Positions 14,319 through 46,958 of a DNA stretch of 64,000 nucleotides are shown one piece after another. The notes under the pieces were generated by a model. It searched no databases, was not told where the DNA came from, and saw nothing but the letters and a program-made list of their open reading frames with translations. The position numbers and the translations under genes are program-made. Each line of letters opens with the position of its first letter. Position 1 is the first letter of the stretch. The DNA is from Ehretia macrophylla (lineage: Eukaryota > Streptophyta > Magnoliopsida > Boraginales > Ehretiaceae), in contig CM075771.1 in assembly GCA_037974665.1 (NCBI GenBank), positions 20,309,425 through 20,373,424 on the forward strand. Reading direction: 5' to 3'.

Positions 14319-14695
14319 GGATTAATACCACTTTTGGTCATTTATCTTTGACCGCATTGACCTTTTAGTCCCTTATCTTCAAAATGAGACATTTCAGTTC
14401 CTTATTTTTTAAAGTTGTGTCACCGGTAGTTCTTGTTGCTGATTCCGTTAAGAAAAGAAAGAAAAAACATGTAATTGACCAAAATACCCCTACCACCAAC
14501 ATCGCTACCACCACCAAATTGTAGGGATATTTTGGTCAACCACAAGCTTTTTTTATTTTTTTTAATGGAACCAGCGACAAGGACTAACGGTGTTCCAATT
14601 TTAAAAGATAAGAGACTAAAATGTCTCACTTTTGAAGATAAATGACCAAAGTGTCAATGATGTCAAAGATAAGTGACTAAAAGTGGTATTAACCC
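14319..14695. mobile_element. Mutator-like MITE (9-bp target duplication)
   Basis: Inverted ends of at least 30 bp start 'ggattaataccacttttgg' on the left and, on the complement of the right end, 'gggttaataccactttta'. A 9-bp TTTAAAATT flanks it (14310-14318 and 14696-14704). Copy 2 of the flank at about 49240-49252 has one uninterrupted copy of this target. Length is 377 bp with no coding capacity. A 9-bp duplication points to the Mutator superfamily. Confidence 0.88.
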
Positions 14696-14704
14696 TTTAA
14701 AATT

Positions 14705-16126
14705 TAACTTCGTGTAGCACACTTCAAAAATAGACAAGTTGTAGAAAAATAAGTCCTATTTTGCAACACAGATTCATAATTTATTTATTTGTTTTTAATT
14801 TAGAAGGAACTATAGTAAACAATTTAACACTCGTATATAATATTATTTTCTTTCAGTAGGGATTAAAAGTTCCTTATATTTCAAAAAAAAAAAAAAAAAT
14901 TGGGGTCAAAAAGGTTGCAACGTTCACTATCCTCTATATACATCAAACGTGCTATATGGCCTTGATGTGTGCTAGAATTGTTTTCTTATTTTTCTATTTG
15001 TATAGTCAATTATATTTACTGCAAGCAATGCAGAAATAATAATCAGTTAAAGTATTACCTCTCTTGGGTAAATTTCCAGCAAACAACTAACTAATGGTAG
15101 ACGGTTTTTCAATACCGCTGGTAAGAGGCCACTTTCAGCGGCGGTTTACGGTTAATTTCATATCTTTTACGGACAATTTTTGAAGCACAGAAGGAGAAGT
15201 GAAAAGGTAATGTTTCGGTTGGAGGTTTGGGATTCTGCTTCTCCTTCTTCTTTGCGTTGCTCTCAAAGAAAACGAATACAGTTTTTATTCAGCAAATACT
15301 GCTAAGAAATCTTTTATTTTCTTATGAGATGGCTTAAGTGCTAGATTATTTTTTCAAACTGATTACCAGGGTGGTTTAAGTACTAAATTACAATATCAGA
15401 ATATGGACTCATTTATCCCCACTTAATTAATTCGATATATCTGCAGGCTATTTTTACCATATATTCATTTGAGGGCCATATTATAATAAAGCGTTTCTAG
15501 TGGACAAAGAATGTGAATGGAAGATCCCATGCTAAATTGAAGTAGGTTATTCAATCTAAGAAATAGTTATATATTTAATTCATAACTCCAGTGAATTGAT
15601 GTCCTTTTATTAGTTTTTATCATAAAAATTTCATTTCAATTGGAATTTGATTATTTACTATGTACGAGTATTTTCACTGAGCATCTATAACTGAATGATT
15701 AGAGCACCCAATTTTGTATGCTCCTAGTATTTTGTAATTTCTAAAGTTTCAAATTTTTATTAATATCTTTTTATTTTCACAAACAAAAAGAAGAAGAAAA
15801 CTGACCTATATATATTGTATTTTTAAATAATATTATAGTGGTATTTAACGTGATTTTAATTTGATGTGACGTAAAAAAATTCCAACATAATGGTGTCGTT
15901 TATAGTAAAAGGAAACAAAGCTATACTGCAATAAAAAAGACAAGGAGAAGAAAATTGATACAACAGTGGGCTACGAAATTTGCCTCTAATTAATTATAAT
16001 GTTAATTCTAAAATTTCTAAAAAGAAGTAAGACACTAGCAAGTATTAATCTAATAACCACACTACGCCTTAGATAGACTGACATCCCCTTTGCGTTATTG
16101 TTCATCTTAGTCCACATAAGTCCGTC
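14705..16126. repeat. Gene-flank duplication, copy 1, last segment (3' flank of gene A)
   Basis: This matches 49254-50668 and, for its second half, 24970-25700 and 29840-31710. Markers are 'aaatttccagcaaacaac', 'gattagagcaccca' and 'gaggcc.atattata'. It is the conserved downstream region of the WAK-like genes and may hold their 3' UTR and polyadenylation signals, but no exact site can be fixed. No reading frame is supported. Confidence 0.75.
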
Positions 16127-17372
16127 TCAACGTGCAGTATTTGTTGGATACAACATTGGAGCAGTATCTAATTCCAAATTATATTGTCCAGAGACATTGG
16201 AAGCATTGATAGGGCTTAAATGAACTGTGTAAAGATCACTTGCTTCAGCTCCACCATAGAGGTCCATTGTTTAATTTTAGCTCTTAGACCTGCAGCCTCC
16301 TTGTCGCTTTGGGGTTCTGTCCAATGATGCTTGTTGAATTTCCTTATACCTTCAAGTTCTATTACCACATCTTTCATTGTAGATCTATCTTCACCGTTCA
16401 AATGAACACATCTCTTCACAAGTTGAACAACTGTTTGGATTTGTTCTAGTGACCCTTCCCTTACAACTCGAGGATCAAGACTTTGAAACAAACGATTTTC
16501 CTTCATAGACATGACAAGATAGGTGGTCAAGTGCCTTTCTTCTAGGCTTCTTTCCATGCAAATATGTTTCTTCCCTGTCAAAAGTTCTGCAAGAACCACT
16601 TCAAAACTATATACATCGCTTTTCTCTGTCAATTGACTAGTATGAAGATATTCGGGATCCAAATAGCCTAATGTCCCTTGAACTAATGTGGTCACTTGAG
16701 TTTGATCCAAGGATACTAATCTCGATGCTCCAAAATCTGATATTTTTGCTGTGTAATCATCATCTAATAATATGTTTGCGGACTTAACATCTCTGTGGAT
16801 AATAGGCTTGGAAGCTGCCGAATGAAGATAAGCTAGTGTACCCGCAGCTTCAGCAGCTATCCTTAAACGGTTCTCCCTTCAGAGCCAAGATGATCTATTA
16901 TTATGGATGTGGTGGAATAGAGTTCCATTAGAGACATATTCATAAACTAATAAAAGAACTTTAGCAGGTTCTAAACAACATCCCAAAAGTTTTACTACAC
17001 TTCGATTGTTAACTTGTGTAAGAATAACCACCTCATTGATGAACTGTTCTATTTGACTCTTATTCATTATTCTAGATTTTTTAATTACAACTACGTGTTT
17101 ATGCAAAAGAACTCCCTTGTAAACTATACCATATCCACCTTGGCCGAGGATCCTATCTTCTGCATAATTATTGGTGGCTTTCTCTAGCTCTTCAGCAGTA
17201 AATATTTTTGTTGATTCTAAACCACCCTCATTTGAATTGATTTGTTGTTTCAATAAAAGACCTCCATTTTGCAAAAAAAATTTCTCTCTCAGTTTACTAA
17301 GCTTCCTCTTTTGGATGCCAAAGCATAGCCAACTTACACCAATAAGTAAGGACAAAAGGCCAATTGCGACAC
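16127..17372 (-). CDS. Gene A exon 3: membrane segment and kinase domain (broken)
   Basis: The acceptor is 'TATGCAG|GTGTCGC'. The exon gives a membrane helix ('[19 protein letters not shown]'), a juxtamembrane stretch, the kinase P-loop '[11 protein letters not shown]', the ion-pair Lys in 'VVIKK', '[13 protein letters not shown]', 'DFGAS', '[10 protein letters not shown]' and '[11 protein letters not shown]'. A TGA falls after 'SSWL' where gene C has 'SWLSWEN'. The invariant Gly of subdomain IX is Glu. Near 16270 a base missing relative to gene B shifts the frame, so the tail matching '[12 protein letters not shown]' of gene B is lost. Confidence 0.85.
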
Positions 17373-17555
17373 CTGCATATGTCATTTCAATTAGGAATAA
17401 GAATATTGTTACAAGTTCCCTTTTCCTTTTGTCCTTAAAAAGAAATATCATAAACGCAGACAAAAAAGAAACACTGTACAAAAGAAAAGGGGCCATCTTA
17501 TGCCGCTATGTTGCTTCATTATCAAGAGTAGATATGCAATTGAACTGGGGTATTG

Positions 17556-17816
17556 TGTAACGAGCAGTAAACCAACAACCCAATATGATAAGTCAGCCCA
17601 AGCTCCATCAGCGGATCCAACCGCAAGGCATAGTCTTATTACGCGGCCAAGTAGTGTGATAGCTGAGTTAGTTAAATAGCAACATGAGTAGCGTGAAGGG
17701 CAAAGAAGAATCTGCTTTTGTTATTTTCTATTACTTTTCTTGCTTTTGCTTCAAGTTCTATCAATGAACAAATAATTTTATTTTTAAATTTTGTAATTTC
17801 TTATTCAATCGTTACA
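17556..17816 (+). repeat. 5' LTR of the gene-carrying element
   Basis: It starts 'tgtaacgagcagtaaacc' and ends 'cgttaca'. TATTG precedes it at 17551-17555. The same 5 bp occur right after the neighbouring TRIM element at 21445-21449, not right after this element's own 3' LTR. Confidence 0.88.
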
Positions 17817-17836
17817 TTGGTGCTTTCATTGAGAGC

Positions 17837-18358
17837 ATGACCGAAGGTACCGGACTACACGCCATGGATGCTACAGTGATGCAATATTATCTACAAATTC
17901 GACAATATCTACAACATTCTCAGCAATATCAACACTGTGATCACCAACACTATTATCACCAATATCCTCAAAGTTATCAGCCATATTCTCCGCATGCTGC
18001 TCCGCCGTCCAACCAAGTGCACAATCACTATTATTATCCAGAAGCGATGTCATCTTATTAGCAATATTTTCAAGTTTCTTTCACCGACACCAACCACGAT
18101 GAGGCGACGCAAATTTCTACAACAAAGCCCGAAGTGCTATCATTCGGCGTAGACTACAAGGATCGTTCGTCAACACCAAATTACAGTCGCGAAGATCTAA
18201 AGCTCGCTGACTCCGAAGCAGAGCCCGAATTCGAAACCCAAAACCACGACTACGATGACGTTTTGAATCGCTCGCAATTACAATCGCAGGAGCTCTCGCA
18301 ATTCGAGCAAGAGCTAAACACTTGTAAAATTTCACAATCCGAACTCAAACATATTTAA
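17837..18358 (+). pseudogene. Leader reading frame of the gene-carrying element (unrecognised)
   Basis: The frame opens directly after the primer-site-like stretch. It encodes a His/Tyr/Gln-rich segment and then an acidic, Ser/Gln/Glu-rich segment. I do not recognise either; it could be a remnant of the element's own gag or another captured piece. Broken fossil. Confidence 0.4.
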
Positions 18359-18361
18359 ATA

Positions 18362-19342
18362 GAGTCTGTGAGGAAGGTGTTTGATGAAATGACTACGAGA
18401 AGTTTGGTGTATTTGAAAGGTAATATGGTAGAGGCAAAAGCGGAGGCGTATGGAAAGGATGCACTTTCGTCGAAACAAGAGAATGAGGTAAAATAGTCTG
18501 TTGATGACTATGAGAGAGGTGAAAGATTAGATTTGGATGATAATGATCCTGAATATGAACATGAAGAATATGGTGGTCTTGATTATGATGAGAAGGAAAA
18601 TGAACAAGAATATATCCAGGAGGGCGATGTAGTAGGGGAAGAAGCTGAGGAGGAGGATGTTGGTGAGGAGGAAGAGGGTAACATGATTGATGTACAGGAA
18701 GAGATTGAGGGAGATGATGAGGACGTGCATGCTAATGAGGAGCATGCAGAGATTACTGATGGTGATACTGTTGCGGAGGAAGACAATCACCATGAACTTG
18801 TCAAAGAACGGCGCAAGCAGAAAGAATTTAAGATTTTTGTTGGGGGCTTGGACAAGGATGCTATAAAGGATGATCTTAGGAAAGTCTTCCATCGAGTGGG
18901 TGAGAATCCGGTGGTCAATGGGAAACAATGTGGTGTTACTCCTACCCAAGACAATGATACCCTGTTTCTGGGAAATATATGCAAGACATGGACAAAGGAG
19001 GCTTTGAAAGAAAAATTGAAGCATTATGGAGTGGAGAACATCGACGATTTGATATTGTTTGAAGACAGCAATAACCCAGGAATGAATCGTGGCTTTGCTT
19101 TCCTGGACTTCTCTTCATGTTTAGATGCCATGGATGCTTTTAAGTGTCTACAGAAGAGAGATGTTGTGTTTGGAGTTGGTAGACCTGTTAAGGTTTCTTT
19201 TGCAGATTTATTCATTGACCCAGGTGAGGAAATCATGGCTTAGGTTAAGACGGTGTTTGTGGATGGGCTTCCTGCTTCTTGTGATGAGGATCGTGTCCGT
19301 GAAATTCTTAAACAATATGGGAAGAGTGAAATAGTTGTGCTA
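18362..19342 (+). pseudogene. Captured piece: RRM RNA-binding protein (hnRNP-Q/At2g44710-like)
   Basis: A long acidic run (Glu/Asp-rich, about 18530-18790) leads into RNA-recognition motifs: RNP2-type 'FKIFVGGLDKDA' and 'DTLFLGNICKTW', RNP1-type 'NRGFAFLDF', and a further RRM start '[11 protein letters not shown]'. This order matches plant hnRNP Q-like nuclear RNA-binding proteins as I remember them. The absence of introns suggests capture from spliced RNA. Only part of the parent is present. Broken fossil within the retroelement. Confidence 0.8.
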
Positions 19343-19417
19343 CTCGTTTTCGGCATGGCTAGGATTTTTGGAGGAGACCAGACAGAAGCAAACACAAAGA
19401 GAGTAGTTGGCACATAT
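19343..19417 (+). pseudogene. Captured piece: receptor-kinase activation loop (S-domain/CRK type)
   Basis: A stretch of about 25 codons reads '[18 protein letters not shown]' and then 'VVGTY'. This is the DFG-to-activation-loop segment characteristic of S-locus-type and cysteine-rich receptor kinases. It is fused in the open frame directly after the RRM piece. The following ~37 codons (to about 19528) are not assigned. Identification rests on one short but distinctive motif. Confidence 0.7.
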
Positions 19418-19528
19418 GAAGGGCCACCATCTGGTGCTTATGTAGTGGATATTGGTGAAACTTCTTATAGCATGGTGTTGGCTGATAATGTTGATGGTGG
19501 TTTTGACTCGATTCAACACATATCCAGG

Positions 19529-20302
19529 CTGATGCATGAGATTACTTTTTCAACAATTGACAAGCCAAAGTTGCTAAGTCAGTTAACATCCATACTTTCT
19601 GAGCTTGGACTAAACATTGAAGAGGCCCATGCTTTTTCCACCACCGATGGTTTCTTCTTGGACGTCTTTGTTGTGGTTGGATGGCCTTATGAGAAAACTG
19701 AGTTGCTGAAGAATGAGCTGCAAATTGAAATTTCAAATATTAAGGAATGACCTGTTTTTAGACAACATTCCCAGGCTGCTGTTAGTGTACATAGCCAAAA
19801 GGATTCCAAATCCATCTCTGAGAGTTTAAAGATACCTACTGATGAGATTGATGTCTAGGAAATTGATTCCTCCCTATTGAAATTTGAAAATATAGTCGTA
19901 TCTGGCTCATATGCTGATCTAGATAAAGGCACATATTGCAGTCAGGACGTAGCTATAAAAGTCCTCAAGCCCGAGCGCGTAAATGTAGAAATGTTGAGAG
20001 AGTTTTCTCAGGAGATATTTATAATGAGGAAAATTCGGCATAAGAATGTAGTTCAGTTCTTAGGTGAATGCACAAGACCTAATTTGTGCATTATAACTGA
20101 GTTCATGTCCAGGGGAAGTGTCTACGACTCCCTTCACAAACAGAAAGGAGCCTTCAAACTTTCTACCTTTCTCAATGTTGCAATTGATGTTTCCAAGGGA
20201 ATGAACTACTTGCATCAAAATAATATAATCCACCGGGACCTGAAGACAGCGAATCTTCTAATAGATGAACACGAAGTTGTTAAAGTTGCTGATTTTGGGG
20301 TT
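19529..20302 (+). pseudogene. Captured piece: ACT-domain STY-type kinase (STY8/17/46-like)
   Basis: The ACT domain ('[17 protein letters not shown]', '[17 protein letters not shown]') is followed by a linker ('IPTDEIDV') and the first half of a kinase domain: 'GSYADL', '[11 protein letters not shown]', '[11 protein letters not shown]' and 'VADFGV'. This is the order in plant STY8/STY17/STY46 kinases, cytosolic Ser/Thr/Tyr kinases that phosphorylate chloroplast transit peptides. The parent family has many introns; none is seen here, so the source was probably spliced RNA. The copy stops at DFG. Broken fossil. Confidence 0.85.
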
Positions 20303-20664
20303 GATGTGCCATTTGATGAGCTGGTTGGCATGCACGGGCCAGTTTTCCACTTGGTTGAAAATGCATTCACAGTTCTTGTAAGCAATATGATATTCCTTGG
20401 AGTCGTCATCTTCGTGCCCTTCTCGTTAAGACGTATTATTCTCTATATATGTCATGGTTGTTGTTCTCGGCGACCAACCCAGTTTTATCTACTATTGTAC
20501 TACTCACAGAATCAACTCTCTCCTTCGCGAATATTACACTGAAGAATGCATTGACTGCTGTTGCAAATTTGATATTTGACAAACAAGAAAATGGTTTGCT
20601 TGGCCAAGTTGCTGATACATTGAAAGTAAATGCCACAGACCAAAATGATTTAAAGATTGATTAT
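20303..20664 (+). pseudogene. Captured piece: SUD1/DOA10-type ubiquitin ligase, membrane region
   Basis: Right after the kinase piece the text becomes '[20 protein letters not shown]', a hydrophobic stretch '[16 protein letters not shown]', and then 'ENGLLGQVADTLKVN'. This recalls plant SUD1 (the DOA10/MARCH6-like ER ubiquitin ligase involved in sterol-pathway control). It is intron-free and partial. The final ~45 codons before the 3' LTR may be the element's own 3' end. Broken fossil. Confidence 0.75.
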
Positions 20665-20711
20665 CCAACTTGGAACCTTGAGAACAAGGTTCATTTCGTA
20701 GCAGGGGGTAA

Positions 20712-20973
20712 TGTAACGAGCAGTAAACCAACAGCCCAATATGATAAGTCAGCCCAAGCTCCATCAGCGGATCCAACCACAAGGCGTAGTCTTATTACGT
20801 GGCCAAGTAGTGTGATAGCTGAGTTAGTTAAATAGCAACATGAGTAGCGTGAAGAGCAAAGAAGAATCTGCTTTTGTTATTTTCTATTACTTTTCTTGCT
20901 TTTGCTTCAAGTTCTATCAATGAACAAACAATTTTACTTTTAAATTATGCAATTTCTTATTTCAATCGTTACA
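20712..20973 (+). repeat. 3' LTR of the gene-carrying element
   Basis: This matches 17556-17816 with about ten differences. It ends 'cgttaca' and is separated by only four bases (TTAG) from the LTR of a TRIM element. Confidence 0.88.
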
Positions 20974-20977
20974 TTAG

Positions 20978-21444
20978 TGGAATGTAATGATCTTACATCG
21001 AAATCTAACTCTTACAAGGGGTGCTTCTTAAGTACAAAGGGTTCTCCCACCTAACAGACTAGCCTTTTGGGATGGGTTATTCCTTTAGACTTAAGTTGTT
21101 ACATTTTTTGGCTTAATTTGTTACATTGGTGCTTTCGTTGAGAGTGGCCTCCATGACGGGTAGACTATATAGGCTAGATTAAGGTGTAGTAAGTGTCACA
21201 CTGAATACTGATAGGTGGGTGCAGCCGCCAAAAAAAAAAGAAAAAACGTGAACGTTGACTCTTAATGTAAGGGGGGTGGAATGTAATGATCCCACATCGG
21301 AATCTCACTCTCACAAAGAGTGCTTCTTAAGTACAAGGGGTGCTTCTTAAGTACAAGGGGTTCTCTCACCTAACAAACTAGTCTTTTGGGATGGGTTCTT
21401 CCTTTGGACTTAAGTTGTTACATTTTTGGGCTTATTTTGTTACA
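20978..21444 (+). mobile_element. TRIM (miniature LTR retrotransposon)
   Basis: Two LTRs of about 148 bp (20978-21125) and 168 bp (21277-21444), starting 'tggaatgtaatgat' and ending 'ttgttaca', enclose only ~150 bp. After the first LTR comes 'ttggtgctttcgttgagag', almost identical to the primer site of the adjacent gene-carrying element. Before the second is the purine tract 'aaggggggtgg'. The second LTR has an internal 20-bp tandem duplication. There is no coding capacity. TATTG follows at 21445-21449. Confidence 0.85.
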
Positions 21445-21918
21445 TATTGCTAGTATTTATATATTTTTATAAATATTTTGCCACCCCTTCTTCTTTAAGT
21501 TGTCCCTTCTACAATCCCATTTAAATGCTCCATCTATTTGAGAAGACCTATATGATATGATCAGTTTGATAGAGCAAAAAAGAAGGCAAAAAATGAACTT
21601 CTTGTAACATGGAAAATTTATTTGTTTTTTGTTTCTGTAAATTGACTATGGTATGGAATTAATCTCCAGAATTATTGAATTAAATACTAATTACTTATAG
21701 TTTCTGAGACAATTATGGATGAAACTTTTCTCTACATGTCTTTAAAGGTATACTAAATACCCTGGCAGTGTTATCCTATAGAAACTTAGCAGGAATTAAA
21801 GAAAGAGGTCGAAATTTAACGTTTGATTACTATACTCATATGAAAAGCTTCGAGAATGAAGAATCCAAACAAAATGCGGCGTTCCTGCCGTGATGACATA
21901 AGAGATGCATAAAATTAC

Positions 21919-22086
21919 CTACGGAGAACTTGATCACGGGAAACTCTGATTTATCACGAATGCAGCCTCGACCATCCTTTCCGTCACCAGAGTATCCATG
22001 TCGGCAAGAACAATTAAAGCTTCCAGGGAGGTTAATGCAAATCATCTCACATGGATTGTTTTTAGGATCTTCACATTCATTAATAT
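21919..22086 (-). CDS. Gene A exon 2: calcium-binding EGF repeat
   Basis: The exon encodes 'DINECEDP...NPC' through '[11 protein letters not shown]' and 'FPVIKFSV', a calcium-binding EGF repeat (D-I-N-E-C start) placed just outside the membrane segment in WAK proteins. The acceptor is 'TTTTGTCAG|AT' and the donor 'CGTAG|GTAATT'. The joined phase gives Gln-Asp-Ile at the 5' side and Val-Gly-Val at the 3' side, both as in the family. Confidence 0.88.
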
Positions 22087-22186
22087 CTGACAAAAGAAGG
22101 AAAAGTAACATAGAAATTAGTTCAAATCTGTTATGAGCTAAATTTGAGAAAACCATCCAAGTAGTTTAAATGTTGATAAAACAACC

Positions 22187-23121
22187 TTGGCAGCCCGGAC
22201 CAAGATAAGGATTGCCCTCATAGCCTTTGTTGCAGCTGCAACGGTACCCTCCTAAACCGCTTGTTGAATTAACGCAAACACTATTTGCTTTACACGCATA
22301 CTCTTTTGACTTTTCGGCTTCTCCGCAACTCGAGCTCCCAATCGCCCAGTCTAACACTATGGGAACACTAGCCAAGATCCTGCGCTCAAACTCAGGATCC
22401 TGGAGATCTGTCACCCCACCGAATGTAAAACGGTCTTGTTCACCAAGAAAGCCATAGCTGCAATTACTGAATGAGTTGACCTCGATTCCATTTTTCGCAC
22501 TGCTGATGGTAGAGTTATAGAACCTTCGAATCTTTGGTATAGATACTTGACAACACCCAATGCCAGAGCAAGACCCATTAATCACATCATCTAATTTGGA
22601 ACAGGACGATACGCATCCAGTGTAGCTCCTCCAATTTCTATCACCTACATAACCAATGGCATCGCAGCTGATGAGGGTGAACTTGTTTGCGTCTGAGAAG
22701 GAGTATGGAGTTTCTTTTCCTAGATCTACAGAAGTCCATCGATTGTCATAATATGTTATTGCACCTGATGAATCGTAGTAGCACCGCTTGGCGATGATAG
22801 TATCAACACGCAGTTGGGTATTTGAAATATCATATACCTCAATGTTACCTACGAAGGGCTTCGGAGGGTCGGAAGAATTGTTGCATATGATTTCGAACCC
22901 GGGGTCTAATGCGCAAGCTGTTCCTATGCCAAATGGGTATGGAATCGTCAGGTTTCCGCATTTAGTTGCGCAATGTTCATGCTTGGCTCTAACGGGAGCT
23001 TTTAGTATAGAGTGCGTATTGTCGGTTGTATTGGTTGAGGTGGTGGTATTAGTCTCGGTTGTGGCTAGCATCAACACTACAGGCCAACAGTGGAGAAACC
23101 GGGCAACTCGCGCGGAAGCAT
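22187..23121 (-). CDS. Gene A exon 1: signal peptide region, GUB_WAK domain, EGF-like repeat
   Basis: From the Met at 23077 the exon reads an Asn/Thr-rich stretch, then the cysteine-rich GUB_WAK domain ('[13 protein letters not shown]'), many N-glycosylation sites, the '[13 protein letters not shown]' segment typical of WAK proteins, and an EGF-like repeat ending '[13 protein letters not shown]'. The exon ends 'CAAG|GTTGTT'. It is part of a damaged gene: the hydrophobic leader '[12 protein letters not shown]' exists, but no in-frame Met precedes it, unlike gene C. Identity to gene C is high throughout. Confidence 0.85.
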
Positions 23122-24969
23122 TTTGTTTGAAGTTATGATTGAAAGATCAAAGATTAATGGGGAAGACTTCATTAGAAAAAGACGAGTAAGAGTTATATTG
23201 CAATAATATGCAAGGGCTATGATCAAAGTTACACTCAACTCTCACCACATTTATAGACTTGTTGGATAAAACTGCACGGCAACATATCGTTTTCTTCGTG
23301 GAATTATTTTCAGTAATCGTATTATAATCGCAAAGCACGTCATATATAGAGTCCTCATGAATATTAGAATAGATCCGAGAGATAAGAATGTCAATGAACT
23401 TTCGGGTCTATCTTAATTACACGGGAGTCTTCATATTTGTTATTGAGGACAAAAGACAGCGAAAGATGACAGTGACGAAAAATACTACCTAGAGTTTTAG
23501 TGAACTTGATTTAGCAGATCCAGTTATATTACGTCCGATGTTAATGTCGACATACATACGATGTCTATTTCCTTCCTCTTTAATTTCATAATTCCAAATT
23601 ATTGTTTCTTTCTCCAATTAACACTCCCAGGAAATTAAACACCCAATACCTCGAAGCATCATCCATAACTTCTTACATTTGCCTTCACATCTCACAAATA
23701 AATAAAATAGTAGGAATAAATAAATTTCTCAGACATTCCATTCCGCTTCCTCGGGTAAAGAAAATTTCTAAAATATTCATTTTCTTTTCCTCGGCTATTT
23801 GTTAATCAAATGCAAATCAAAAGGAAGATTGGGAGAAACGGGGAATAAGGGAATTAGGAGGGGAGGAAATTCAATAATTTGTTTTGTGGGAATGTTAGTA
23901 GTGATATGGGTAGAGATCCGACCCGGCGTAGACTCGACCCGCTAATTTGGCCTGAATCGATTCGATAACCTAGTGGACAATTCCATGGCTCATAAGTGGG
24001 ACCCGCAACATGACTTCTTGGTGACAGAGTCAAATCATGTAGGGACTACCAAGACATACTTAAGGTACACTTAAGGCAAGAATGTTATTATTATAAATAG
24101 TCTATTCAATACACCAATTAAGGTAATTCATTTATTGTCCACTTTCTCTATACTTATTCATGAATATTTCAGCTCAAATCATTTAATTGAGGAAGTCCCC
24201 TAGTCATAACCCCGTGATTCCTTTCCTTTGTTTTACTAGGAAGAGAGGAAGGAAATTAGAAAGTGAATTGCAATCTCTTCACTCTCCTAATTTCCATTCC
24301 ACGTCTCATCCTTGTCTACCCTTTTCCCCGTCCTTTCCCTCCTTTGAACCACACGGCAACATGTCCTTCTCTGCGCACTGCAACAATTTTGACCTAATCA
24401 TAAAACAACACAGACCTTGACCAAAAAAAAAAAGGTAAAACAGCACATCAAAGTCCCCCAGAGACAACAAGAGGTTAATTAGTCATTTTCATTTACACAA
24501 TGAACTTGCGGGTCAATCTCAATATGGAAATATACAGAGGTTCACAAATTTAGTTATTGATGGACAAAAGACAGAGACGATAGACCAGTGATTTATCAGT
24601 GAAGTTCATATCCTTGTCAAGTGTAATTCCAGGCCTACCAAGAGTTAAGATGTAGACTTACAATTGACGAGAGATACTATCGGGAATTTACATTGTGGAC
24701 ATAATTTAGAAGATTGATATTCACGTGATTATGAAAGTTGACAGACCGTTACCTTTTTTTCTTTTTTTTTTGAAAAAAAAAAGTCCTAATGATTAACTTC
24801 CTGAGGGTTGTTTATAGATCTAAATATTTTATAAGTAAATAATTATTACATACACTTATCTCATGATCTGCAACACAATTAATATTTTTTCTTTACCGAT
24901 TTGAGATATTCACTTTTTAAATTTTAGACAAACTACCCTTGACTATTTATAATCATCATATTTTTTCAA
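23122..24969. other. Upstream region of gene A; no gene seen
   Basis: This is the presumed promoter and 5' region of gene A plus intergenic DNA. A motif 'tattataaatagtc' near 24092 is TATA-like but lies on the plus strand, so it does not serve gene A. Sequence at about 23385-23530 ('caatgaacttt.cgggtc', 'ggacaaaagacag') recurs in diverged form at 24500-24650, so part of the region is a local duplication. No reading frame is convincing. Confidence 0.45.
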
Positions 24970-31710: not shown

Positions 31711-32959
31711 TCAACGAGCACTATTTGTAGAAAACATCATCGGAGTAGTATCTAATTCCAAGCTGTATTGTCCAGAGATATTAGAAGTATTGGTATGATA
31801 AGGACTTAATTGAACAGTGTAAAGATCTCTTACTTCAGTTTCATCATAAATGTTTGTTACTTCATTCTCAACCATTAAGCCTGCAACCTCGTTATTAGCT
31901 TGTGGTTGTGCCCAAGGATGCCTGTTGAACTTTCTTAAACTTTCAAGTTCCATTGTCACTTCTTTCATTGTAGGCCTATTTTCACTATTCAAATAAAGAC
32001 ATCTCTTTATCAGCTCAGCAAATGCTTGGAATTGTTCTAGCGACCCTTCCTTTACAATTCGAGAATCAAGAATTTGGAACAAGCGATTCTCCTTCAAGGA
32101 TGTGACAACATAGGTGGCCAAGTTTCTTTCTTCTTGGCTTCTTTCTATAGAAAGAGGCTTTTTCCCAGTCAACAATTCCGCAAGAACTACTCCAAAGCTA
32201 TATACATCGCTTTTCTCTGTCAATTGGTTAGTATGAAAATATTCAGGATCCAAATAGCCTAATGTTCCTTGAACTAATGTGGTCACTTGCGTTTGATCCA
32301 AGGGGACCAATCTTGAGGCTCCAAAATCTGATATTTTGCTGTGTGATAATCATCTAATAATATGTTTGTTGACTTAATATCTCTATGGATAATAGGCTTG
32401 GAAATTGTAGAATGAAGATAAGCTAGTGCACCCGCAGCTTCAGCGGCTACTCGCAAACTATTCTCCCATGAGAGCCAAGATGTTCCACTTTTAAAAATGT
32501 GGTTGAACAAAGTTCCATTCGATACATATTCATACACTAACAAAGGAACTTCAGCTTCTAAACAACACCCCAAAAGCTTCACAATGTTTCGATGGTTCAC
32601 TTGTGTAAGAATAATCACCTCATTAATGAACTGTTCTATTTGACTCTTATCCATTATTCTAGATTTTTTAATTGCAATTATTCGTTTGTCCAACATAATT
32701 CCCTTGTAGACTGTACCATATCCACCTCGACCAAGAATCCTATCTTCAGCATAATTGTTACTCGCTTTCTCTAGCTCTTCAAAGGTGAAAATTCTTGTTG
32801 ATTCTCTACCACCCTCGTTTGAATTGATTTGTTGTTTCAATAAAAAGCCTCCATTTTGCAAAAAGAATTTCTCTCTCATTTGAATAAGATTCCTCTTCTT
32901 GATAATCAAGTATATCCAACTTACCCCAATAAGTATGGACATAAAGCCAAATCCCATAC
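31711..32959 (-). CDS. Gene C exon 3: membrane helix and kinase domain
   Basis: After acceptor 'CATGCAG' come the membrane helix ('[18 protein letters not shown]'), juxtamembrane region, P-loop '[11 protein letters not shown]', catalytic Lys in 'IAIKK', '[12 protein letters not shown]', '[15 protein letters not shown]' (an RD-type kinase), '[11 protein letters not shown]' and '[10 protein letters not shown]', with a Ser/Thr-rich tail '...YSLELDTTP'. All catalytic motifs are present, but they lie in two frames split by the one-base loss before DFG. The parts read as 32283-32959 and 31711-32310. Confidence 0.88.
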
Positions 32960-35005
32960 CTGCATGTCAGTTCAGTAAGGAATAAGGATTTTTGTTATTA
33001 ATTTATCTTTTTTGACGGAAAAATGAAATAAATTTAAATAGACAAACTGAAAACAGAATCATAAGAAAAAAGGGTATCCTATGTCACTCCGTTGCTTATA
33101 TATCAAGAGTAGATACTATAAATGAAGTCGGGAATTGCTAAATTTTTCGAGATCTAGGAAGAGATCTGCCTTTTAAAGAATTTGTAACAATTCAATTAGC
33201 AGGCTGGTTTGCTCCCCTCTTATCTCTCTGAAATGCGGTAGCCACCTAAGAGAGTACGTATCTCCAACAATTAATGCTCTCTACTTTGGCCAGTATATGT
33301 TTATTACAGCATGGAAAAAAAAAATATTTTATGTAACTCCATTATATAGTAGGAGTATATATATATTGAATGTCGAATCTCTTATATATATCGTAAATAT
33401 TTTATTATACAAGGACAAGTGAATGGTGATATCATAATAATATTGTTCTAGAAAAGGACATAAATCAACTTCTTGTAATGTGGACAATTACTTAAAATTT
33501 ATTTTTTGTTTCTCTAAATTTAAATCGTCCACTTCCACTATATATATATTTTTCAAAGTGAGAATCATGAATTCAACTTTTTCTTGATCATTTCTTTTTG
33601 CTAGCATACTAAATGCCTTAATTACCTTTGGATTAATTCCTATACAGACTAATCAGGAATCAAACGCAAAAAGTTCGAAATCTCACGTTTGATTATTATT
33701 TTCAGATTATAATTAAGCTTTGTGAAAGAAGAAACTGAAACACATGAGTTCCTTCCTGCCTTGATGAGAACAAGAAATGCACAAAAATTACCTAGAGAGA
33801 ACTTGATCACTGGAAACTCTGATGATGAGTATACGTAGTTATCAGGAATGCAGCCTTGACCATCCTTTTTCCCGTCACCAGAATGTCCATGGGGGCAAGA
33901 ACAAGTAAAATTTCCATCGTAATAATTAGTGCAATCAAATGTACATGGAGAGTCGGCACATTCATCAATATCTGTCGAAAGAATTAAGCAAAAACATTAG
34001 TTGATCAAGTCTGTTATGCGCTTTGAGAAAATAAACTAAGTCGTCGTTCAAATGTTGATTATAAATTAACCAACCTTGGCAGCCCGGATCAAGATAAGGG
34101 TTGCCCTCATAGCCTTTATTGCAGCTGCAACGATACCCTCCCAAGCCGGTATCTGAATCAACGCAAGAACTATTCGCTTTACACGCATAGTCCTTTGACT
34201 TTTCGGCTTGTGCGCAACTCAAATTCCCAATCGCCCAGTCTAGCACTCTGGGAACACTATCCTTGATTCTATTCCGAAACCCAGGATCTTTTAAATCTTT
34301 TACCCCGCCGAATGTAAAACGGTCTTGTTCACCAATAAAGGCATAACTGCAAGGATTGAATGAGTTGAACTCGGCCGTCTGTTTATTCGAACTGCGTATG
34401 GTTGTGGTGTAGTACCTTTGACGCTTTGGTATAGATACTTGACAACACCCAATGCCAGAACAAGACCCATTAATCACATCATCTACTTTGGAACAGGACG
34501 ATACGCATCCAGTGTAGCTGGTCCAATTTTCATCACCTATATAACCAACGTCGTAGCAACTGATGAGGAAGAATTTGTTTGCGTCTGAGTAGGTGAATGG
34601 ACTTTTTCGTAGACGAGTTTTGATTGTTGTAGAACGTGTTACTTTCCCTGATGAATTGTAGCACCTCATGGCAATGACATTTGAAATGCGCAGTTGGGTG
34701 TCTGATATGTCATATATCTGGAAGCTACCTACGAAGGGCTTGGGAGGGTTGAAAGTATCGTTGCATTTGATATTGAATCCAATATCTAAAGCACAATCTG
34801 TTCCTATGCCAAATGGGTATGGAATCGTCAGATTGCCGCATTTAGTTGCGCAATGTTCATGCTTAGCTCTTACGGGAGCTTTCAGTATAGAGTGCGTATT
34901 AATGTCGGTTGTATTAATTGAGGTGGTGGTATTAGTCTCGGTTGTGGCTAGCATCAACACTACAGGCCAACAGAGGAAAAACCAGGCTACGCACCGAATG
35001 AACAT
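31711..35005 (-). CDS. Gene C: WAK-like receptor kinase, three exons, one frame break in the kinase
   Basis: Best-preserved cluster member. Exons are 34075-35005, 33792-33971 and 31711-32959, joined by GT-AG introns in the phases used by WAK genes. The protein would have a signal peptide (residues 1-23), GUB_WAK domain, EGF-like repeat, calcium-binding EGF, one membrane helix and a full Ser/Thr kinase, near 725 residues, normal for WAK/WAKL receptors. Members sense cell-wall pectin fragments at the plasma membrane. One base is missing from an A-run near 32335, just before the DFG motif, relative to genes A and B, so the frame shifts between 'LLDDYHTAK' and 'SDFGAS'. This is either a recent inactivating change or a sequencing error. 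The start was chosen for its signal peptide. Upstream control signals are not identifiable. Confidence 0.85.
33792..33971 (-). CDS. Gene C exon 2: calcium-binding EGF repeat
   Basis: The exon starts after 'TTCGACAG' and encodes '[14 protein letters not shown]' through '[11 protein letters not shown]' to 'EFPVIKFSL', with donor 'TCTAG|GTAATT'. The D-I-D-E-C start and cysteine spacing are those of a calcium-binding EGF domain, the usual second exon of WAK genes. It is 60 codons, four more than in gene A because of an insertion near 'YVYSSSE'. Confidence 0.9.
34075..35005 (-). CDS. Gene C exon 1: signal peptide, GUB_WAK domain, EGF-like repeat
   Basis: Residues 1-23 ('[20 protein letters not shown]') are a clear signal peptide. 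An Asn/Thr-rich spacer and the GUB_WAK pectin-binding-type domain follow ('[17 protein letters not shown]', 'PPKPFVG'), then the WAK-associated part with '[13 protein letters not shown]', and an EGF-like repeat with six cysteines ending '[10 protein letters not shown]'. Many Asn-X-Ser/Thr sites fit a wall-facing glycoprotein. The donor is 'CAAG|GTTGG'. Confidence 0.9.
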
Positions 35006-36121
35006 CTTGCTTTAATTTGCTTGGACTTATGGTTGGCGGCGGTATTATGCATTCATTGAGGCATTATATAGACTAGAAAACAAGTGTTTGTAATAGACTT
35101 TTGATATGGTCAAGTTCCTATAAGCACGCATCTTTCCCCAATTGAAAGGCTGCATCCTATATAGTTATTAAACTAAGCTTGTCCTATCATCTTACTTACA
35201 AAGGCCAAGTAGAATTAATATACACGCTCGAGACTCGAGAGTTTTTCTTTCTTCTTTGACACATTCTTTTTAGACACGCACAAGTGGGAGAAGATTGAAC
35301 CAAGCTGAAACCGTCAAGGATGTGATGCTGTTTCTTTGATTTGTACGACTAATTAATTCTTCAAGTCTTTAATTTTCACTTTTGAGAAACAAAACCAAAA
35401 TTACAACTAATAAGAAGAAAGTTTAATTTGCACTCGGCGCTTATTCAAATTCTCGAGCAAAAGCTCATGCAATTTCAGTGAGTTGACCATAGCTCCGACT
35501 AACGAGCTCATGTTCCTCAATTGTAATGCTTGAACATTTCCATCGAATCCGGTATTGTGTTTTATATTTCTCTCTTCCTAGTTTTGAAATCTATAAATCG
35601 CTAAGTTGTTTATTTATTTATTTATGATGAGATCATACTGATTTTGATTACAAATATTTTGGTGCACGACACGCCCAAACACATTCTAAATCAGTTAATA
35701 CTCAAATTTTTAATCTCAATAAGTTATTACGAGAATATTCAATCCAATTAGCTTGTGGGGAATAAATCATTAAGAATCTTTTTATGTTAATTGACTCGCG
35801 GGACATAATATATAGTGTGTCGGCGGCTGACATTCGAGAACATATCTTCTCACATGTTATTTTTGTATGTAAGGAGGGAAGTTGTCAACAACATAAGGGA
35901 TTGGCGGAGGTTGACGCGACTCTTTCAACCTCTCAATGGGATTGGTAGGGAGGTTGAGGCGACTCTTCAAACAACTTAACTCGCAGGCAAGGATTTTAAA
36001 AAGGAAAATGTCAACATATAAAGAAGCTAAAATAAACAACTTATCAAGTTGACAGGAGAAAAGAAAACGACTTATCAACGCGATTTTGTTTTTTACTTGC
36101 CACGGTGTCGTGGAGTCGATA
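35006..36121. other. Upstream region of gene C; no gene seen
   Basis: This is the presumed promoter of gene C on the minus strand and intergenic DNA. A minus-strand TATA-like motif may lie near 35065-35075 ('gcattatatagac' on the plus strand), about 65 bases upstream of the start. The short frames here are not convincing. At 36122 the second copy of the gene-flank block begins. Confidence 0.4.
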
Positions 36122-37047: not shown

Positions 37048-37615
37048 TGTTAAGGGGAGCTCCAACAGCTCCCCCAAATGTCAAAAACCATCAAATTTGA
37101 GGGAGCTGTTGGTCCTATATAACTCTAATAGCTCCCTTAAATGATCCCCCATATTTTAGGGGATAAATGATTTGAAGTTTGGATCCCTTATTACTTGAGG
37201 ATCAAATTCTTCCCCTATCTCATCCCCTATAGTTTTTAATGTTATAGAAGTATGAATTTTCTATATAGGGGAGCTGTTGGAGTAAAATTAAAATAGGGAT
37301 TGTATAAAATAAGAGATTGGTTAAAAATAGGGGAGCTGTTAGAGTGAAACTAAAATAGGAGATCTGTAAAAATAAGAAAAATACTTCAAATCCCCTAAAT
37401 GTAAGAAAAAAATAAGAGAACTGTTGGAGTTGGCCTAAGAACTCCTCAATCTCATAATTATCTGGACTCTTGAAGACTCCTACAAGAACCAAAACTTCTT
37501 TTAAATTTTGTATTGTACTTCAATGTATATCTTTGTAACTAAATCATCTTGTACAATGGTTATATAAAGATCAATAGAACATCCTGCAATCTTAACGGCA
37601 AATATTTCTCTTTCA
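37048..37615 (+). repeat. 5' LTR of the outer copia element (interrupted by a MITE)
   Basis: It starts 'tgttaagg' and resumes after the MITE with 'actcctcaatctcataatt', ending 'atatttctctttca', as in the 3' LTR. Confidence 0.9.
37054..37435. mobile_element. Harbinger/Tourist-like MITE inside the copia LTR
   Basis: The ends are 'ggggagctccaacagctcc' and '...aactgttggagttggcc', inverted. TAA lies on both sides (37051-37053, 37436-37438), while the intact 3' LTR has TAA once at this place. Several internal copies of 'ggggagctgttggagt' occur. 382 bp, non-coding. The TAA duplication is the Tourist/Harbinger signature. Confidence 0.9.
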
Positions 37616-37663
37616 TGGTGTAAGAGCCTAGGTTTTTTTTTTTCATGTCCAAGCTTAGCATCC

Positions 37664-40145
37664 ATGGCCTCACCCTCTTCCTCTTTAAACACTGCTCCTG
37701 CAACCCAAACTACTGATCCTCCGACTCAAATCACCCTTCCCACGGTTGATCATATACATCAAGAACTATCTCTCAAACTGGCCACTGATAATTTTCTCTT
37801 ATGGAAGACCCAAATCTACCCGGTTCTCCGTTGTCATGGGCTGCTTGGTTTTCTCGATGGAACCATTCCTAAGCCAATCTCTTCTCCGGATGCCATAGCC
37901 GAATGGATACGACTTGATCAAATGGTCCTCGGTTGGATATTGGTCTCTCTCTCAGACATTTTTTTCTCTCAAGTGGTGGATGAACACACTGCTCGTGACG
38001 TCTGGTTGACCTTGGAGGTGCTATATGGCTCACACTCTCATGCACGGATTCAACAATTAAAGACAGAACTTCAGTCTCTGGTTAAGGGATCCATGTCCAT
38101 TCATAGCTACATACAACAGGCGAAATCTCTTTCCCTTGCTCTCGCGAGTGCAGGCAAGCCTGTTGATGATGAAGATCTTACCTTGTGGACTTTACGCGGC
38201 TTAGGGTCCAAATTTGACTCCATTGTTGCTGCGATAAATTCTCGTGCGACCTGCCCCACCTTTGCGGAAGTTTGCGGACTTCTTTTGGACTATGAATTGC
38301 GGATCTCTTCGACTTCTTTATTGGCCAAGTCTACTGCCTTCACAGCAACTCAGGCACATTCCGTTGTTTTTGACAAGTTCTCACCACATCAGGTTTCTTC
38401 TAATTATTGCAAACAGCAATCTTCCTCTTTGTCCACTCAGTCATCTCGTGCTCCTCAAGCAGGCAGAGGTAATATTAATGGTAAACGAGGCCGTGGTGGT
38501 CGCGAGTCTAATCGTGGCCGTGGACGTTCTGTGTCATCTTCATCTCCTGTTGTTTGCTATCGATGTGGTCATCCAACTAAAGCTTTCAATGCTGTCACCA
38601 TAAATGATCCTACAGACCCGAATTGGTATTTAGACACCGGTGCGACACACAACATGACTCCAGATGGCAATCAAGTTTCGGGTAAGTCTCCATATTCTGG
38701 CACTGATACTGTTATGGTTGGAAACGGCGCTGGCCTACCGATTTCTAACACAGGTCAAGCTTCTCTTCAGTTATCGGAAGGTTCTAATTTAAAGTCTCCA
38801 GTCTTACATGTTCCATCTCTTGCTAAGCGGCTAATCTCTGTTGCACAATTTACACGTGATCATAATTGTTTTTTTATTTTCACATCTTCTGGTTATTTGA
38901 TCAAGGACATGAAGACAGGGCATTTGCTACATCAGGGAACGATCAATAATGGACTTTATTCACTTCAACAGCCTTCCAAGCATTTATTCCTTGCAAATAA
39001 AGTCAGCTATGATGTTTGGCACGCACGTCTGGGCCATCCATCTGCCCGAGTTCTTCAATAAAGTTCTTCAGTTTCCTACTTCGACGGTTGATAAAAGCTT
39101 ATGCGGTAGTTGCCAGTTGGGTAAAAGTCACCGTCTTCCGTTTGACAATAAATTGCAGCGGTCTGACTCATTATTGAATATAGTGCATTGTGATGTTTGG
39201 GGTCCAGCTCCAACATCCTCTTCTGATGGTTTTAGATTTTATCTTGTATGAGTTGATTACTATAGTCGCTTTGCTTGGTTTTATCCGCTTTTATGGACAT
39301 CAGATGTTATAACTATTTTTCCTGATTTTATCAATATGGTTCAGAACTTGTGCAATTCGAAAATTAAATGTGTACAATCAGATGGTGGTGGTGAGTTTAT
39401 TAATCATTCTCTACAAACGGTTTTCCATGCTTATGGTATTCTGCATCGTATCTCATGTCCGGGGACACCAGAACAGAATAGTGTTGCACAGAGAAAACAC
39501 CGTCATATAGTTGAGACTGGACTCACATTATTGGCACATAGCTCCTTGCCTGCTACATTTTGGGTGCATGCCTTTTCTACTGCTGTGTATTTGATCAACC
39601 GTTTGCCCATACCATTACTTGGTCATAAATCCCCCTATGAGCTGTTGCATGGTTCTCCGCCTGACTACTTGACTCTTAAGGTATTTGGGTCGCTTTGTTA
39701 TCCGTGTCTTACTCCGTTTGGTCGTCACAAATTAGCCTTCAAAAGTTGCTAGTGCGTCTTTCTTGGCTACAGTACTTCTCATAAGGGTTATAAATGTTTC
39801 AGCCCTACTACTGGAAAAATCTTCGTATCGCGCCATGTCGTGTTTGATGAACTTAATTTTTGGCGTGATTGGAAATCTTCTAGTACTTCAGAATCATCGC
39901 TGCCATTTAATTTTCGCAAGTTTCCATCTCAGTTGCTTACAAGTCTGCCACCAAGTGATTCAATTTTATCTGCACAAGATCCTCTCATAAGCCAACCAAG
40001 TCAAACGTCTCAAGACTTCATTTCTCAAGACATTTCTTCAACTCATACACCAGAGATTGCTATTCAACATAATATGGACCAATTGCCACCAAATCACATT
40101 GATATGTTGCATGTTGATGGTGCTCACTCAATCGTGCCTACTAAA
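37664..40145 (+). pseudogene. Outer copia gag-to-integrase remains
   Basis: A copia gag opens at 37664 ('LKLATDNFLLWKTQIYPVL', 'GLLGFLDG'), with a basic Gly/Arg-rich stretch and part of a zinc-knuckle. The protease signature region ('WYLDTGATHNM') and a GAG-pre-integrase and integrase core ('SDGGGEFINHSL', 'GTPEQNSVAQRKHRHI') follow. It is interrupted at 40145 by the nested copia element. Broken fossil. Confidence 0.88.
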
Positions 40146-40736
40146 TGTAAGAATATTTTAGTGCTTTGTGAATGGAAATTATTAATTAAAGATTAGTGGA
40201 ACAACTTTGTGTAACATGCTTGCTAAGTTTTGTGTGCAAAGATTCCTTGCTGCTATAAAATCCGTGTCACTTTGCATGCTTGCTAGAATAATTGTGCATT
40301 TATTTATATATATTTTGGTGGGTAATGATGACTCCCACTATAAAGTTTGCCTATATATTTGTGTGTGTTTTGCTGGTATTGAGGATGAAAAAGAACAGAG
40401 AGAACAAGAACGAAAATTAATTTCATTTTATCATTGTGTCCAATAGAGAGAGTTTGTCATATTCAGTTCAATAGTTTCGTAGTTTGGTGTGCTCCTACTA
40501 CGAAGAAAATATCGTTGTATCCTGGGAGACTTACGTTAATCAACCGAAAGCACCGTAGCGGGACGTTAAAGTATTAAGGACATCGAGTCTAACTCGAGCC
40601 TCGATATCATCTATATTTGGTTTATTTCTACATCCTTAAATTTTAATATTGTTAATTTTATATTCTGTTATTTTAATCTTTATTGCACATCTTGTATTTA
40701 TATTTACAACACTTCTCTCATTTTAATTGTCCAACA
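40146..40736 (+). repeat. 5' LTR of the nested copia element
   Basis: It starts 'tgtaagaatattttagtg' and ends 'attgtccaaca'. A TATA-like 'gctataaaatcc' lies near 40253. The short reading frame 40207-40446 lies wholly in the LTR and recurs in the 3' copy; it is not a gene. Confidence 0.95.
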
Positions 40737-41143
40737 ATCTTAAGACTTTAATTAATAATTTCTTTAATATGATTCTGTGAAGTATAACAAACTGGAAAAT
40801 AAATTACATTTCCATATACCTCTTAATTTTCTGATGTTAATGGTGAAATTTTCATCAAATTTGGACTTAAAATGAGAAAGATATGAATTTTTTAAGGACC
40901 TAATCTTGAACTGTTCAATACCAATTGCACGTTTCTTTGTTATCGTTTTCTTGCTATTACTGCATTCGCATACGCTTTGCTGAAAGAAGAATCTTGCATT
41001 ATAATATATATATATATATATTATATTAACATGCAGTGACTTTATATATTATAATATATATTATTTGTATATTAACTAATATATATTATTATATTAATTG
41101 TATATTATATTAAGTTATTGCTGAAAGGAAACTTTGCATTATA

Positions 41144-41210
<67 letters not shown>

Positions 41211-41452
41211 TAGTTGTAGTAGCTTTATATTATTTTAGTGATATATTATATTAGTCATTGTAGCTTTTGATGCAGTAGCATTATAATAAATTGTCCATTT
41301 GAGAAGCAAAATTTTAATTGTTTTTGCTGTTACATAGGCTTGATCCTAGGACCTCAAGGTTACTAATGAGAAGAGTCTACCACCGAACCAAATGTTACTT
41401 CTTGGTTCTTAAGTGACAAAATAATTATTAGTAGACTGTTCTCTAACTGAAT

Positions 41453-41485
<33 letters not shown>

Positions 41486-41704
41486 TTGAGTAATTGTTTT
41501 ACTTAATTAGTTTTAACTACTTACTTGACTGTCTAATATAAATATATATACATATAGTAGACTATGTGATTTTAATATTTCTTTCAAAAGTATTATTTCC
41601 TTAGTCGTTACTTTAATTTTGGTGTTAAATTATTTTGCGACTAACTTTATTTTTGTGCAACGTGTATAAATAGGTATTTGGACTTAATATAAATAATATT
41701 AATC
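40737..41704 (+). other. Leader of the nested copia element with microsatellites
   Basis: This long untranslated leader has an (AT)n tract (about 41142-41205) and an A-run (about 41453-41482). Directly after the LTR the sequence reads 'atcttaagactttaattaa', which is not the usual 'tggtatcagagc' primer site. No gene. Confidence 0.7.
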
Positions 41705-45804: not shown

Positions 45805-46362
45805 TGGAAAACCCTACCTACGTGACAGGAGATCCCTGGAAGTAGGTTCAAAGGGAAAAACTGAGCTATGAATGATTCATCGAGAGCACTGTGGGGGTAA
45901 TACTCCCACCTATTCCTATGATGAGCAGACAGTGCTGCCTGCATGTGGTTTAGGATAAGCTATGCTTTTAATGATACTTATATCTTGGAAAATCCAAGTG
46001 GGCTATTACAGGATTATTCTTAATAAGTGATCACCTATGTGAGTAGGGAGTGGGCCGCTCCTACGAGAATCTCTAAGGCTGAATTCTCTAGAGTACTCAT
46101 GAAACTGGGAGTTGTTCAGGGCCAAAATGAACACAACCGTGAGAACTGAAGTATGGTTAAGAGGATGTTGTGTGAGTTCTATTGTCTTGGTTTACACAAA
46201 AGCTGAACAGTTCAAGACATCGCGTTCACTGGTTAGCAAGTAAATCCGATAGTTCTCACTACGGAAGGTTCAAGGCCAAAAGTTACCTATCCGGAAGCAG
46301 TATCCATCTTTCAACCTCTCTCTAGTGTCTATGTATTGTTAATTTCCATTCATGTGGGGGAT

Positions 46363-46953
46363 TGTAAGAATATTTTAGTGCTTTGTGAATGGAAATTATT
46401 AATTAAAGATTAGTGGAACAACTTTGTGTAACATGCTTGCTAAGTTTTGTGTGCAAAGATTCCTTGCTGCTATAAAATCCGTGTCACTTTGCATGCTTGC
46501 TAGAATAATTGTGCATTTATTTATATATATTTTGGTGGGTAATGATGACTCTCACTATAAAGTTTGCCTATATATTTGTGTGTGTTTTGCTAGTATTGAG
46601 GATGAAAAAGAACAGAGAGAACAAGAACGAAAATTAATTTCATTTTATCATTGTGTCCAATAGAGAGAGTTTGTCATATTCAGTTCAATAGTTTCGTAGT
46701 TTGGTGTGCTCCTACTACGAAGAAAATATCGTTGTATCCTGGGAGACTTACGTTAATCAACCGAAAGCACCGTAGCGGGACGTTAAAGTCTTAAGGACAT
46801 CGAGTCTAACTCGAGCCTCGATATCATCTATATTTGGTTTATTTCTACATCCTTAAATTTTAATATTGTTAATTTTATATTCTGTTATTTTAATCTTTAT
46901 TGCACATCTTGTATTTATATTTACAACACTTCTCTCATTTTAATTGTCCAACA
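46363..46953 (+). repeat. 3' LTR of the nested copia element
   Basis: Nearly identical to 40146-40736. It is preceded by the purine tract 'tgtgggggat'. Confidence 0.95.
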
Positions 46954-46958
46954 CTAAA

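Follow-up and report, generated by a model that had tools for sequence, protein, structure and literature searches.

A non-autonomous LTR retrotransposon of Ehretia macrophylla carrying intron-free, in-frame pieces of five host genes

The DNA analysed here is a 64,000-nucleotide stretch of the Ehretia macrophylla genome (C8:20309425-20373424; hereafter the window), in which positions 17556-20973 are a non-autonomous long terminal repeat (LTR) retrotransposon of apparent Ty3/gypsy ancestry that carries spliced pieces of at least five host genes. The element is a layered mosaic in which some pieces were inherited and others newly captured, a structure consistent with template switching; very probably, its interior was rebuilt by serial switching of this kind onto spliced host mRNAs and the RNAs of sister elements. 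An original prediction, made from the letters alone, had proposed capture by template switching from at least four unrelated donors. The number of donors rose to five with the recognition of a DEX1 piece at 19418-19506 that had been overlooked, while the mechanism stands in amended form: missing introns, joins within exons and an empty site for one piece speak for it, but the element did not collect every piece itself, having inherited a DEX1-SUD1 join and sharing the 3′ boundary of its receptor-like-kinase (RLK) piece with two other loci. Searches were made over the 1.58-Gb, 20-contig genome; C numbers denote chromosomes and L numbers denote loci.

Element structure and donor genes

The two LTRs (17556-17816 and 20712-20973) have TG..CA ends and are identical at 252 of 261 aligned bases (96.6%; Kimura two-parameter distance, K2P, 0.036). 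They had been predicted along with a primer-site-like stretch (TTGGTGCTTTCATTGAGAG) and a purine tract (GCAGGGGGTAA, ahead of the 3′ LTR), all of which are borne out, and other copies flanked by 5-bp target duplications confirm that the LTRs are the true ends of an element. A genome query with the LTR yielded 129 candidates, of which 40 were scored as matches; the two LTRs of the window element are among these. Among 14 relatives with both LTRs, the target duplication is exact in eight and agrees at four of five bases in six; these relatives represent fewer independent insertions, given that the five loci on C20 have common flanks and that L011 and L012 likewise have flanks in common. The interior open reading frames (ORFs) scanned gave zero Pfam matches to protease, reverse transcriptase or integrase, and the element is therefore at most a non-autonomous derivative of Ty3/gypsy. 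Its parts are as follows.

17556..17816, + strand: 5′ LTR, TGTAACG...CGTTACA (LTR alignment)
17817..17835, + strand: primer-binding-site-like stretch TTGGTGCTTTCATTGAGAG; a similar stretch lies behind the LTR of a Ty3/gypsy cousin (L092)
17837..18058, + strand: leader from an ATG, its initial residues gag-N-terminus-like, then low-complexity and Y/Q/H-rich (ORFs)
18070..18434, + strand: core common to many other elements; the counterpart of its opening remnant is HSP70-like in sister L043
18425..19344, + strand: RRM-gene piece, its first bases overlapping the core at the join
19348..19416, + strand: RLK activation-loop piece, 69 bp (match to a C18 gene)
19418..19506, + strand: DEX1 piece (match to a C8 locus)
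19507..20303, + strand: STY/ACT kinase piece (Pfam and C7 locus; empty site in L016 and L022)
20304..20640, + strand: SUD1/DOA10-like piece, containing a frameshift (match to a C13 gene)
20641..20711, + strand: pol C-terminus-like tail (..YPTWNLENKVHFVAGGN..) and purine tract
20712..20973, + strand: 3′ LTR (LTR alignment)

Each named donor was located by genome search as a separate locus, and for STY the assignment rests on ACT and kinase domains as well. Two of the donors are on C13 and one each on C18, C8 and C7 (five places, four chromosomes), which rules out one multi-domain host gene as the source. The names SUD1, DEX1 and STY are presumed here from the protein sequences. As anticipated, the pieces are intron-free, 14 introns of the donor loci being absent from the element (four of the RRM gene, eight of STY and one each of DEX1 and SUD1), and all five are in the element's sense orientation. 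Pack-MULEs and Helitrons capture genomic DNA with introns; neither class fits, since introns are absent from the pieces.

The RRM piece (Pfam RRM_1, 1.2e-9), whose start is corrected to about 18425, joins five exons of a gene at C13:80784542-80787810 and carries an in-frame internal deletion of 111 bp near 18904. It is 94.4% identical to this donor and 87.4% identical to a paralogue on C3. Likewise, the SUD1 piece is nearer to its named donor (C13:21015361-21016939; 94.3%) than to the paralogue compared (81.8%); the C13 gene matches the stretch at 91-93%, in keeping with the predicted SUD1/DOA10-like origin, and there is no Pfam match within it. The predicted receptor-kinase activation loop matches a gene exon at 69 of 69 bases (C18:36337247-36337315, 100%), and the DEX1 piece derives from C8:21525267-21525662. 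The ACT (1.3e-7) and kinase (3.1e-37) domains of the STY/ACT piece, expected from the original reading, come from a single donor at C7:86382297-86394334 (last short exon in L040), of which nine exons are joined at 95.6% identity. An in-frame TAG common to this locus and the element points to the C7 locus itself as the donor. The TAG lies in the donor exon at C7:86393068-86393251 (L039), and the locus may be a pseudogene or need re-annotation. For the core, Pfam finds HSP70 (1.6e-6) in the equivalent of its opening remnant in L043; no core donor beyond this HSP70-like remnant was found.

Order of the captures

In L016 and L022, which lie on other chromosomes and have their own target duplications (matching at four of five bases), DEX1 passes directly into SUD1 at GATGGTGGTTTT/GATGTGCC (on the SUD1 side also GATGTGCCATTT), the join of L016 differing by a single base from that of L022. 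In the window, STY sits exactly between the halves that are fused in these two copies. The same DEX1/SUD1 join is present in L076, L077 and L078. Because unlinked relatives carry DEX1 and SUD1 fused, the fusion preceded STY and was inherited by the window element. In L078 (C17:54817400-54820500), a Ribophorin II piece (Pfam, 2.1e-41) lies within SUD1 about 30 bases downstream of the join, so that this neighbourhood has been entered twice by different genes. The junction of SUD1 with the tail is common to the window, L013, L016 and L022.

The history of the other pieces is more varied. The RLK piece ends at GGCACATATGAAG in the window, L016 and L074 (the spliced reading of the gene would be GGCACATATGGTTACATG), and this shared 3′ boundary suggests that the piece may have been inherited; on the other hand, the gene is matched in full by the window piece and at only 96% by that of L074. 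L074 adjoins a core match and seems also to lie within such an element. The RRM pieces of the window and of L010, L011, L012 and L024 differ in extent and look independent: among 459 sites, 20 derived states are private to the window and 17 are common to L010, L011 and L024 only, while a single shared capture is unsupported, with three shared derived sites and three changed differently in both. STY pieces with other boundaries, in L032-L038 and in L031, suggest that STY was captured up to three times. Against separate STY captures, L032 is 90.7% identical to the window (301 sites) and 88.9% to the gene (287 sites), and a partly shared STY history of the two is possible.

Joins between the pieces

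Five joins were compared for similarity (core/RRM, left STY, DEX1/SUD1, STY/SUD1 and RRM/RLK), the original prediction having proposed a check for microhomology; similarity is present at the first four. At the core/RRM join, 11 exact bases are common to L044 or L048 and the RRM gene, a length not reached in any of about 20,000 random point pairs. The parental sequences (L022, L016) match the STY gene at 22 of the 27 bases leading up to the left STY join (0 of 294,430 random pairs), and at DEX1/SUD1 the two genes agree in register at 14 of 16 (0 of 197,762). The STY/SUD1 join has three exact bases, a level attained by 6% of random pairs. An eight-base sequence, TGATGGTG, considered as an overlap at two joins, was dropped in favour of the in-register counts, the switch points lying a few bases further on.

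Both ends of STY, the right end of DEX1, both ends of SUD1 and the 3′ end of the RRM piece fall inside exons, which argues against trans-splicing or read-through splicing of element RNA to host exons followed by reverse transcription; that route could account for spliced pieces and for the right end of the RLK piece, which is the donor exon end or two bases beyond it, and we consider it very unlikely. Assembly at the DNA level, with processed pseudogenes inserting side by side or within the element and deletion and ectopic recombination then joining them, is unlikely too, if slightly less so. Recombination between LTR elements after insertion is described as common (PMC1950507), and the window copy does have a 111-bp internal deletion; this route would have to produce five sense-oriented pieces in one frame and a STY join placed at donor/target similarity, and no poly-A or target duplication was noticed at the joins by eye, with no dedicated search made. 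Template switching is favoured because the introns are missing, the joins lie inside exons and STY has empty-site relatives.

Under template switching, the element would have kept nothing of its own but the ends that serve in mobilisation (the LTRs and primer site, the start of gag, the end of pol and the purine tract) and would depend on a helper acting in trans, while reverse transcriptase would switch serially to spliced host mRNAs and to sister-element RNAs in the same particle. An ancestor would have gained SUD1 beside the pol tail and DEX1 next to SUD1, this block being present on several chromosomes; STY would later have entered the DEX1/SUD1 join, the RRM piece would have been captured separately at the core, and the RLK piece was possibly inherited. 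Several of the switches would have occurred where both templates were similar, and products that retained the gag-pol reading frame would have multiplied.

Reading frame

Core, RRM, RLK, DEX1, STY and SUD1 are each in their native frame, and all of these are the frame of the leader ATG (the core frame was taken from the HSP70 match in L043). With SUD1 passing into the tail in frame after the frameshift within SUD1, six of six joins are in frame. Random frames would give this result with a probability of about 1/729; similarity that is in phase may be favoured at joins by codon periodicity. Open frames span the joins at 19244-19750 and 19859-20542, much as had been predicted. The window frame has six stops before the frameshift and 13 over the whole interior; the two remaining sense frames have 58 and 94. 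The window copy is thus decayed, and its cargo was once one continuous reading frame.

Long frames recur in relatives. Three of nine have a mostly open frame (stops in the other frames in parentheses): L011 with 2 stops (66, 92), L010 with 5 (66, 93) and L017 with 7 (60, 50). Sister L032 has 1,085 open codons between its LTRs, with 0 stops compared with 54 and 90 in the other frames, and L046 has 11 (72, 46) with 733 codons open; both have exact 5-bp target duplications, by reading. Among core matches alone (189 candidates, 150 scored, some rows being duplicates or split loci), 63 of 113 list open frames of at least 300 codons, 34 of at least 500 and 14 of at least 700; for nine of the 63, a stop within the match is listed as well.

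A host function for the fusion protein, that is, a domesticated chimeric gene, might be considered from the common frame across six joins, the small divergence of the duplicated interiors described below (K2P 0.0073) and some low ratios of nonsynonymous to synonymous substitution (dN/dS), such as 0.30 for STY of the window against its gene and 0.39 for SUD1 over about 42 codons. Six in-frame stops ahead of the frameshift in the window copy speak against it, as does an RRM dN/dS of 0.69 where gene and paralogue give 0.15, and we regard it as extremely unlikely. In the relatives, RRM dN/dS against the gene is 0.93 (L011), 0.70 (L010) and 0.67 (L024), and is 0.34 between L010 and L011 and 0.14 between L011 and L024; STY gives 1.27 (L032), 0.80 (L038) and 0.29 (L031), SUD1 0.18-0.39 over 32-42 codons, and comparisons of the core 0.4 to 1.5. 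A broader proposal, tenable but short of being favoured, is that this genome hosts frame-keeping collage retroelements with a fixed shell of LTRs, gag start and pol end and freely exchangeable coding content, under selection on frame continuity over the encoded protein.

Sister elements and the origin of the shell

A Pfam scan of sister cargo covered 40 ORFs from 16 loci. Ten of them contain at least two unrelated families in one frame (E <= 0.01), and in five both are above the curated cut-off: kinase/lectin with DAG kinase (L022), PARP with RRM (L010), proteasome with TOM1 (L032), HSP70 with PPR (L043), and PPR with aldehyde dehydrogenase and SHMT (L046). Other sisters carry EF-G (L016), Rab-GAP/TBC (L013), pectin acetylesterase (L045) and the Ribophorin II piece already mentioned.

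A Ty3/gypsy cousin on C18 (L092), comprising three stretches taken as one element from their positions, has a 1,638-codon open frame and is apparently autonomous, judging by Pfam matches to RVT_1 (5.9e-38) and protease, with a chromo match below the cut-off. Its gag N-terminus resembles the leader of L013 (BLASTP, 2e-11) and its pol end that of L010 (3e-5); sisters, in place of the window copy, were compared in both cases. With the gag start and pol end alike in sisters, the collages look like gag-pol frames whose middle has been replaced.

Several points weigh against the account given here, in whole or in part. The elements are known from genome sequence alone, and the long LTR pairs examined (L023-L026) yielded no autonomous partner sharing these LTRs; L023 carries further host pieces. 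The switch point of the left STY join has only a short exact overlap, at DEX1/SUD1 the fused copies have a TTTT found in neither gene, and the RRM/RLK join has no clear common bases and a few unexplained ones. The frame test was devised once the pattern had been seen, L032 and L046 were selected for their long frames, and six of the nine relatives (L013, L014, L015, L016, L019 and L022) have no single mostly open frame. Age alone is insufficient to explain the latter, since LTR identity separates open (L011 96.5%, L010 99.2%, L017 89.0%) and broken relatives (L013 96.2%, L014 98.5%, L015 96.1%, L016 92.3%, L019 94.0%, L022 90.0%) uncleanly. Protein-level constraint is also mixed, with dN/dS against donor genes of 0.18-1.27.

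Among individual relatives, comparison with L013 suggests that L014 has undergone a later shift within a piece, and L015 has an interior that exceeds those of L013 and L014 by about 570 bases, owing perhaps to a retained intron or a further insert. L024 (C2:64012600-64021800), an RRM/PARP collage of the L010 type, is broken by a nested element that by eye is Copia-like (1,352-codon open frame).

Relationship to known elements

Terminal-repeat retrotransposons in miniature (TRIMs) and large retrotransposon derivatives (LARDs) are non-autonomous LTR elements; the present element resembles them in having no enzymes of its own and differs in that its interior is host coding sequence. The kind to which it belongs is already known from maize Bs1, which a 2026 review, also describing abnormal template switching, counts with its three donors among the first examples (PMC13317346). 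Like Bs1 as presented there, it is an LTR element with several host-gene pieces forming a new chimeric gene, and intron-free pieces of several host genes are found here too, from at least five donors in place of three. Also unlike Bs1, sister families here share, exchange and re-capture modules, and the pre-insertion state is preserved. LTR elements with captured host genes have been surveyed in rice (672 genes) and sorghum (1,343) (cited in PMC7264820; source survey PMC3726574), and a series of at least five donors read in a single frame sets the present element apart from these as described. What is new is the population of interchangeable, in-frame, multi-donor elements, no description of which was found in the open-licence literature searched.

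The case for exon shuffling by retrotransposons has usually rested on individual elements, Bs1 among them. In this genome, donors occur together with a pre-insertion state, with a spot that different genes have entered and with sisters that have long open frames, which makes it possible to measure the order of capture, the part played by sequence similarity and the need for a frame to stay open. If the proposed reading is true, these elements would amount to a permanent apparatus for exon shuffling, in which certain host mRNAs are sampled again and again (apparently twice for RRM, perhaps three times for STY) and modules pass from one element lineage to another. A need for frame continuity would point to a step linked to translation or RNA quality in the mobilisation of non-autonomous LTR elements.

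Insertion site, TRIM-like neighbour and duplication

On either side of the element are parts of a minus-strand kinase gene, presumably of the wall-associated-kinase-like family: kinase-domain ORFs on the left (16216-17505) and an extracellular-domain ORF on the right (22166-23146). The insertion is probably intronic. For a paralogue elsewhere in the window (31711-35011), the alignment extends to the base preceding the 5′ LTR, there is no TRIM match at the site, and to the right of it the alignment is poor. The immediate surroundings are as follows.

17551..17555, no strand: TATTG, target-duplication-like 5-mer ahead of the 5′ LTR
20974..20977, no strand: TTAG, separating the 3′ LTR from the TRIM-like element
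20978..21444, + strand: TRIM-like element with LTRs at 20978-21125 and 21277-21444 (136 of 148 aligned bases identical) and a similar primer site
21445..21449, no strand: TATTG, second copy

TATTG occurs only at the outer ends of the LTR element plus TRIM (17551-21449) and is absent directly behind the 3′ LTR. Among the 42 matches listed (211 candidates, 40 scored), the LTR/TRIM junction is found only at the window site and its duplicate. The simplest reading is that the two possibly integrated as a composite in one step; two insertions could explain the pair equally well, a further point against the account as a whole. Template-switch complexes described in Triticeae have two elements inside one outer target duplication, as may be the case here, but share an internal LTR between two related elements (PMC1950507), whereas two unlike LTR families abut here with TTAG between them.

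A second copy of the region lies 171 kb away: window positions 14609-23636 match C8:20495500-20504500 (L009) over 9 kb at 98.0%, with divergence that is patchy (0 to 7% per 300 bases, with its peak in the TRIM). Since both flanks match too, a second transposition is ruled out and the copy is a segmental duplicate. The recurrence of the structure there with its flanks, and of its modules in unlinked copies, makes an assembly artefact unlikely. Dating by LTR divergence is unreliable, as the two duplicates of this one insertion yield 0.036 and 0.073. Downstream of the kinase cluster, window positions 37568-48714 and 61679-62629 hold what we take from their motifs to be Copia-like gag-pol frames.

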